A stretch of 64,000 nucleotides of DNA, taken from contig OZ007581.1 of the NCBI GenBank assembly GCA_963931925.1, positions 10,750,192 to 10,814,191 of the forward strand, given 5' to 3'. Below are positions 13,436 to 44,082 of this stretch, in pieces. The stretch is from Onchidella celtica. Taxonomy: Eukaryota; Mollusca; Gastropoda; Systellommatophora; Onchidiidae. A program made the position numbers and the translations under genes. Each line of letters begins with the position of its first letter. Position 1 is the stretch's first letter. The notes beneath the pieces are model-generated. The model made no database searches, was not told the origin of the DNA, and saw only the letters and a program-made list of their open reading frames with translations.

Positions 13436-13536
13436 CTACTTGCTGCTCAAACCCGGTCTGTACGACTTCGCGTCCCCTGGTGTTGCGTAGAGATGTTCGT
13501 CCATGCTCGCTGTACCAACGCATGCATATTCTGCCT
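13436..13536 (-). CDS. Gene 1 exon 16: cytoplasmic tail end and stop
   Basis: Acceptor TTGTACAG|AG enters in phase 1 and the frame ends at TAG (13438-13436). It encodes [20 protein letters not shown] and then [13 protein letters not shown]. Three tyrosines; YATP fits YxxP. An alternative in-phase acceptor, TATTACAG|GA at 13551, adds five residues. The 30-bp repeats upstream offer further in-phase acceptors (see the 13551-13790 entry). An ATTAAA hexamer reads on the minus strand near 13258, about 180 nt past the stop. Confidence 0.72.

Positions 13537-44082: not shown

Follow-up and report, generated by a model that had tools for sequence, protein, structure and literature searches.

A probable lectin-tipped membrane receptor gene, member of a locally multiplied family, in Onchidella celtica

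The analysed window, a stretch of 64,000 bp (C15:10750192-10814191, in a genome of 1.14 Gb in 43 contigs), carries one gene, which probably belongs, as a diverged member, to a family multiplied locally and encodes a type I membrane receptor likely engaged in immune recognition. The haemocyanin family Haemocyan_bet_s, a molluscan type, is matched in the genome (33 matches out of 45 candidates), in keeping with a mollusc. Its 18 exons on the minus strand join in phase from 44082 to 13436 and give 2,988 nt, or 995 amino acids, without internal stops. The encoded order is a signal-peptide-like start, a C-type lectin domain, five Ig-type units, an FN3 domain, a helix, and a cytoplasmic tail (Table 1). 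That the gene is real, and that it has this architecture, is well supported. A preliminary description of this DNA had counted 16 exons and 923 codons, figures which the present model of 18 exons and 995 codons replaces, whereas the domain order, the strand, and the coordinates given there agree with it.

Gene structure and splice sites

Table 1. Exons of the receptor gene, with positions in the window

Exon	Content	Position	Strand	Remarks
1	Start codon and signal-peptide-like sequence, 28 codons, phase 0 to 1	43998..44082	-	
2	C-type lectin domain, N-terminal part (CPSSW...SC...C)	42731..42928	-	in P1 (twice), P2, P4
3	C-type lectin domain, middle (AFIGL...YIWG)	40020..40111	-	in P1, P2, P4, P5
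4	C-type lectin domain, C-terminal part (GWREGEPN...YVCQ)	37389..37521	-	in 8/8 other copies read
5	Ig-type unit 1	36398..36733	-	10 genome loci; V-set E 0.0009, below cut-off
6	Ig-type unit 2, first half	34390..34523	-	Ig nature inferred
7	Ig-type unit 2, second half	31965..32166	-	
8	Ig-type unit 3	30937..31260	-	Ig_3 E 0.0012, below cut-off; profile matches PDB IgSF
9	Ig-type unit 4, first half	26630..26781	-	end corrected from copies
10	Ig-type unit 4, second half	25632..25758	-	unit 4 Ig_3 32.2 bits, cut-off 30
11	Ig-type unit 5, first half	24299..24424	-	
12	Ig-type unit 5, second half	23832..24020	-	unit 5 Ig_3 E 0.0059, below cut-off
13	FN3 domain, phase 1-1 cassette	20056..20370	-	fn3 31.2 bits, cut-off 25
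14	Transmembrane helix and start of cytoplasmic tail	19138..19302	-	best 19-residue hydropathy window 3.13
15	Cytoplasmic tail (YSQP, PYYS)	17441..17542	-	weak similarity to exon 16
16	Cytoplasmic tail (YSQV, PFY)	16024..16125	-	
17	Cytoplasmic tail (YTNK)	14334..14423	-	
18	End of tail (YACV, YATP) and stop codon	13436..13551	-	

The splice dinucleotides are intact in all 18 exons. Four further copies of the family (P1, P2, P4, and P5) were rebuilt from 50 kb of DNA around each, and the splice sites in them were compared with the positions predicted from the window, taking the nearest site of the same phase. Of 42 sites of each kind, 34 acceptors and 37 donors lie exactly at the predicted position, and the remaining 8 acceptors and 5 donors are shifted by 3 or 9 nt, in phase; the count precedes the later addition of P4 exon 9. 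We judge this agreement to be more than chance, the junction of exons 9 and 10 being partly circular in that the start of exon 10 in the window was chosen with the copies in view. These two exons had at first been joined at a weak donor (GTATGG), which yielded 1,029 amino acids; this join was dropped because P1, P2, and P5 exhibit a phase-0 junction, which is also found in the window (end of exon 9 at 26630, start of exon 10 at 25758).

Several other features are situated among the exons. A decayed partial second copy of exon 12, with a stop codon, lies on the minus strand at 24148-24297. Immediately before the last exon, a 30-bp unit is tandemly repeated in 7.9 copies (13547-13782) and reiterates the acceptor-like TTACAG/GAACT, as though the splice acceptor had been multiplied. 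Clean intron minisatellites are located at 35527-36044 (36-bp unit, 14.4 copies) and at 39654-39949 (66-bp unit, 4.5 copies), and intron 2 contains a plus-strand open frame (41219-42250) that matches zf-RVT below cut-off; it is probably a retroelement piece antisense to the gene.

The 5' end and the junction of lectin and Ig exons

Concerning the 5' end, a scan of positions 50,000-42,930 found exon 1 as the sole combination of an ATG, a hydrophobic stretch, and a phase-1 donor. The DNA upstream of exon 2 was scanned in the window, P1, P2, and P4. A common signal-peptide-like exon, MDQM[RK]A[AV]LVVAILCT[TS]GLSA, with a phase-1 donor, was found in P1 (twice) and P4, and it is the only candidate of the scan that they share. 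Not counting nested starts, P1 has three further separate candidates ahead of the first of its two copies of exon 2 and one ahead of the second; P2 yielded none, though with too little upstream DNA.

In P1 (C15:9415001-9465000), the signal-peptide-like exon and lectin exons 2 and 3 occur twice, at offsets 4978-9182 and 14291-18493, that is, 9.3 kb apart and upstream of a single exon 4, with FIGL in one set and FIGH in the other. The two sets may serve as alternatives for the 5' half of the lectin domain, or they may stem from a partial duplication.

The lectin and Ig parts are to be read as one gene because exon 4 adjoins the exon of the first Ig-type unit (Ig1), on the same strand and 0.27-1.13 kb upstream of it, in all eight other copies read (i.e., the Ig1 loci apart from the window itself and the locus at 12533632). 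Exons 1-4 by themselves would make an ordinary secreted lectin, and the frame, read beyond exon 4, runs for 50 codons until a stop, such that two adjacent genes might be considered, one for a secreted C-type lectin of around 170 amino acids and one for an Ig/FN3 receptor beginning with exon 5. Against this arrangement, which we regard as highly improbable, stand the constant neighbourhood of exon 4 and Ig1, the phase-1 junction of exons 4 and 5 retained in the four rebuilt copies, and the lack of a signal-peptide-like exon with a phase-1 donor between these exons in all five copies scanned (window, P1, P2, P4, and P5). The split into two genes that the preliminary description had named as a possible refutation is not seen in the genome copies, and an orthologue built differently, the other refutation named there, did not come to light in this genome or in the open-licence literature searched. 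Intron 3 of the window contains one signal-peptide-like candidate with a phase-0 donor fitting exon 4, and a second ATG reading, at 37665, was seen by eye; both starts were set aside since the protein would begin inside the lectin domain.

Lectin, Ig, and FN3 domains

Run on the whole spliced protein, Pfam confirmed the three domain types of the preliminary description, with Lectin_C (30.0 bits, cut-off 22.6; residues 77-166 of 995), Ig_3 (63.9 bits, cut-off 30), and fn3 (Table 1) all above their cut-offs. The same scan of P1, P2, and P4 gave 30.9, 41.3, and 37.9 bits for Lectin_C and 55.4, 48.4, and 43.9 bits for Ig_3, all above cut-off, and a profile built from the joined lectin domain of four copies retrieved C-type lectins from the PDB, CEL-IV being the best match (1.6e-9).

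Calcium-dependent sugar-binding C-type lectins possess an EPN or QPD motif together with a WND motif and the C3-C4 cysteine pair. The lectin domain of the window retains the fold and exhibits EPN, those of P1, P2, and P4 exhibit EPS, and both the WND motif and the C3-C4 pair are absent from all four aligned domains, so that the full combination is not present. This makes calcium-dependent sugar binding doubtful, and protein ligands would be possible.

As to the five Ig domains of the preliminary description, the exon pattern agrees with five Ig-type units, and four of them are found by Pfam at E < 0.01 when given singly, only Ig4 passing the cut-off (as again in P2) and Ig1, Ig3, and Ig5 staying below it; accepting these matches, at least four units are present. 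For Ig2, the best Ig match given singly (E = 0.07) is unconvincing. In profile searches of the PDB, all nine matches of Ig1 at E up to 0.1 and all 21 matches of Ig3 at E up to 1 are named as IgSF chains; Ig5 retrieved nothing, and Ig2 only CD276, at E 0.13-0.14. Butyrophilin and CD276 matches also cross the border of Ig1 and Ig2 (best E 9e-5). From these border-crossing matches, its place, its length, and its pattern of cysteines and tryptophan, Ig2 is taken as a putative Ig-type unit. Profile-profile comparisons of Ig2 with Ig1 and Ig3, and of Ig4 with Ig1, Ig3, and Ig5, had probabilities under 2% and are uninformative either way. Single-sequence folds of Ig1 and Ig3 (mean pLDDT 38 and 48) were too poor to use; a fold search with the Ig3 model, of no significance for this reason, had no hit with E below 0.1, and the 50 matches listed did not include an Ig. 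An NCBIfam scan of the first 594 residues, with a library made for prokaryotes, found nothing.

The family on contig C15

Searched with the protein, the genome yielded 44 matches, counting the exons of the window itself, and 43 of these are on C15. The Ig1 exon occurs at 10 loci (all 22 candidates scored), all on C15, nine within 9.4-12.6 Mb including the window and one at 45.63 Mb. Exons 2-12 follow in order in P1, P2, and P4, and exons 3-12 in P5, in each case rebuilt in phase without stops; exon 2 was not found in the P5 DNA, which begins 1.3 kb before exon 3. In a further copy (P3), a reading of the lectin end and Ig1 as one exon, with an open frame of 457 amino acids, was discarded, since the frame crosses intron repeats of the ATCC type and exon 4 lies in another frame.

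The window gene is diverged: its Ig1 is 54-58% identical to the other copies within 9.4-12.6 Mb, which are 79-86% identical to P4. This divergence, the gene's own tail, and the decayed partial copy of exon 12 mentioned above would also suit a decaying or unexpressed family copy. An open frame of 2,988 nt across 18 exons with intact splice dinucleotides argues against decay, and we consider it improbable.

Two copies, at C15:10881717 and 10908293, are situated 26.6 kb apart and have identical scores; they may have arisen by a very recent duplication or have been duplicated in the assembly. Elsewhere in the genome, dense clusters of C-type lectin domains situated in one open frame were listed (150 of 476 candidates scored) on C3 (53.5-53.7 Mb), C11 (33.7-34.0 Mb), C13 (39.0-39.2 Mb), C15 (32.3-33.1 Mb), and C18 (26.6-26.9 Mb).

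FN3 cassette, helix, and cytoplasmic tail

The FN3 domain is contained in a single exon of phase 1-1. No FN3 exon was found at E 0.01 in P1, P2, P4, and P5; an exon of 55% identity is located at C15:45.64 Mb. Besides the window exon and this one, 19 weaker FN3 matches exist, all on C15 (11 at 45.76-46.22 Mb, 6 at 5.60-5.79 Mb, and 2 at 8.34-8.37 Mb). The helix exon, which comes after Ig5 in P1 and P2, has by our reading the same phase as the FN3 exon (1-1); therefore, the reading frame is kept whether FN3 is in or out.

Exon 14 encodes the one strong hydrophobic helix of the protein, as judged by hydropathy rather than by a dedicated predictor. Helix exons were also read in P1, P2, and P4, that of P4 being different. 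The tail comprises 149 residues with 10 tyrosines. It is the least certain part of the model (exons 15-18), because a second copy of exons 14-18 was not found in the genome at E 0.01. Exons 15 and 16 exhibit a weak similarity (65 of 5000 shuffles as good), and the similarity of the window's tail exons to the two tail exons of P1 does not go beyond shuffles. In P5, only a piece resembling the first of these P1 exons was found.

The pattern Y-x-N is that of Grb2-type SH2 sites. In the two tail exons read in each of P1 and P2, which are unlike those of the window, it is found at all three tyrosines of P1 (7 of 5000 shuffles as rich) and at all five of P2 (0 of 5000), whereas the window tail has it at 1/10 tyrosines, no more than chance (1730 of 5000), in a shuffle test made after the motif had been noticed. 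Concerning the ITIM, defined as [SIVL]xYxx[LIV] in the tail, none of the 10 tyrosines of the window tail lies in a strict motif; P1 and P2 contain one ITIM-like LVYANV apiece.

Selection on the copies

Pairwise dN/dS was calculated among the four rebuilt copies and, for the lectin domain, among P1, P2, and P4 (P5 being without exon 2). For the lectin domain the values are 1.57, 1.63, and 2.07, with dN exceeding dS not significantly (Fisher p 0.12-0.25). Across the six pairs they range from 0.31 to 0.84 in Ig1, 0.60 to 1.42 in Ig2, 0.83 to 2.27 in Ig3 (also above 1 in four of six pairs), 0.60 to 1.18 in Ig4, and 0.40 to 1.15 in Ig5. None of six Fisher tests of dN against dS was significant (p 0.08-0.25). 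These values suggest, and do not show, a diversification of the lectin tip.

Proposed function

As far as the sequence allows such a reading, a recognition receptor signalling through phosphotyrosine is the most likely function; its ligand, its expression, and its immune role we infer. The signal peptide, as read from the sequence, would lead the protein into the secretory path and the single helix would anchor it. Being the outermost part, the C-type lectin domain would form the main contact surface and may bind a protein, or a glycan without a full calcium site, and the Ig units together with the optional FN3 would form a stalk, possibly with further contacts. Binding would cluster the receptor, and on engagement a cytoplasmic kinase would phosphorylate tail tyrosines, to which SH2 adaptors would be recruited. 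The recognition of microbes, parasites, or self by haemocytes is the likely role. Immune use is our best guess because the family is multiplied and because there is a precedent in Biomphalaria; the sequence of a protein for adhesion or development would look no different.

Ig and FN3 domains with a helix are the usual layout of adhesion molecules, and Dscam and Robo2 head the PDB matches. The gene might thus encode a contactin- or Dscam-like cell-adhesion molecule, developmental or neural rather than immune, for which an insect contactin orthologous to CTL-X4, described with a C-type lectin domain and Ig (PMC7379682), provides a further parallel. We think this unlikely, though a fair alternative: locally multiplied copies would not be expected of a conserved adhesion gene, nor does the combination of a single FN3 with a helix and a tyrosine tail match a contactin, which PMC3195077 describes as GPI-linked.

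Comparison with known systems

Insect contactin begins with an N-terminal lectin domain, followed by six Ig and four FN3 domains. The likeness of this septate-junction gene (CTL-X4) to the window gene consists in the C-type lectin domain plus Ig; instead of a GPI anchor and four FN3 domains, however, the window gene exhibits a helix with a tail of 149 residues and one FN3, and it belongs to a multiplied family. With ITIM/ITAM receptors (e.g., Siglec-like ones), it has in common an Ig stalk, a single helix, and a tyrosine tail, whereas a strict ITIM was found at 0/10 of its tail tyrosines.

Recognition by gastropod proteins with lectin and Ig domains is mostly discussed via secreted FREPs and CREPs. 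CREPs (VIgL) likewise combine C-type lectin and Ig domains within one protein. As described in PMC10075465 and PMC10875847, they carry a signal peptide, their lectin domain stands at the C terminus, and their IgSF domains number one or two. The window gene is not a CREP because, in contrast to this description, its lectin domain comes first and is followed by five Ig-type units by exon pattern; moreover, CREPs are secreted, whereas the strong helix of exon 14 would anchor the window protein.

A family named with the order lectin, Ig, FN3, helix, and tail was not found in the open-licence literature searched, which does not show that none exists. The statement of the preliminary description that no family with this order had been described nevertheless needs qualifying: PMC10875847 reports the same set of domains in Biomphalaria, naming B. 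pfeifferi and B. glabrata as well, the linear order not being given in its text. According to the description there, these proteins of lectin and Ig type are highly diverse, single-pass, and candidate pathogen-recognition receptors. In BSUD.12903 of Biomphalaria sudanica, a single exon, either expressed or skipped, encodes FN3, and in the extracellular part nonsynonymous diversity exceeds synonymous diversity (PMC10875847).

The likeness of the window gene to the BSUD.12903 type comprises the C-type lectin, IgSF, and FN3 domains, one membrane helix (by hydropathy only in the window gene), an FN3 in a single exon (which in the window gene may be optional), and the clustering of related genes, here with 10/10 Ig1 loci on C15 and nine of them within 9.4-12.6 Mb. 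There are differences, too: BSUD.12903 measures 647 amino acids, or 741 with its alternative exon, compared with 995 in the window gene, and therefore probably has fewer units; and it is described with a TMEM154 domain, whereas no Pfam TMEM154 was found in the window protein at E up to 1. The latter is not required for the Biomphalaria group, because genes with at least three of four domains are grouped there (PMC10875847). Compared by description, not by sequence, the match in kind is close.

A membrane-bound lectin-Ig family, locally multiplied and with tyrosine tails, could link recognition to signalling on the cell. Tentatively, it is possible that the gene is part of an ancient system of variable phosphotyrosine receptors with lectin tips in gastropods, shared with the Biomphalaria clusters and constituting a repertoire of recognition specificities bound to the cell, beside the secreted FREPs and CREPs. 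Its variety would come from copies in tandem, from an FN3 cassette that is optional, from lectin tips that diversify, and from an exchange of cytoplasmic tails, rich in Y-x-N in some copies and different in others. If the homology is confirmed, the hyperdiverse receptors of Biomphalaria would not be peculiar to that genus.
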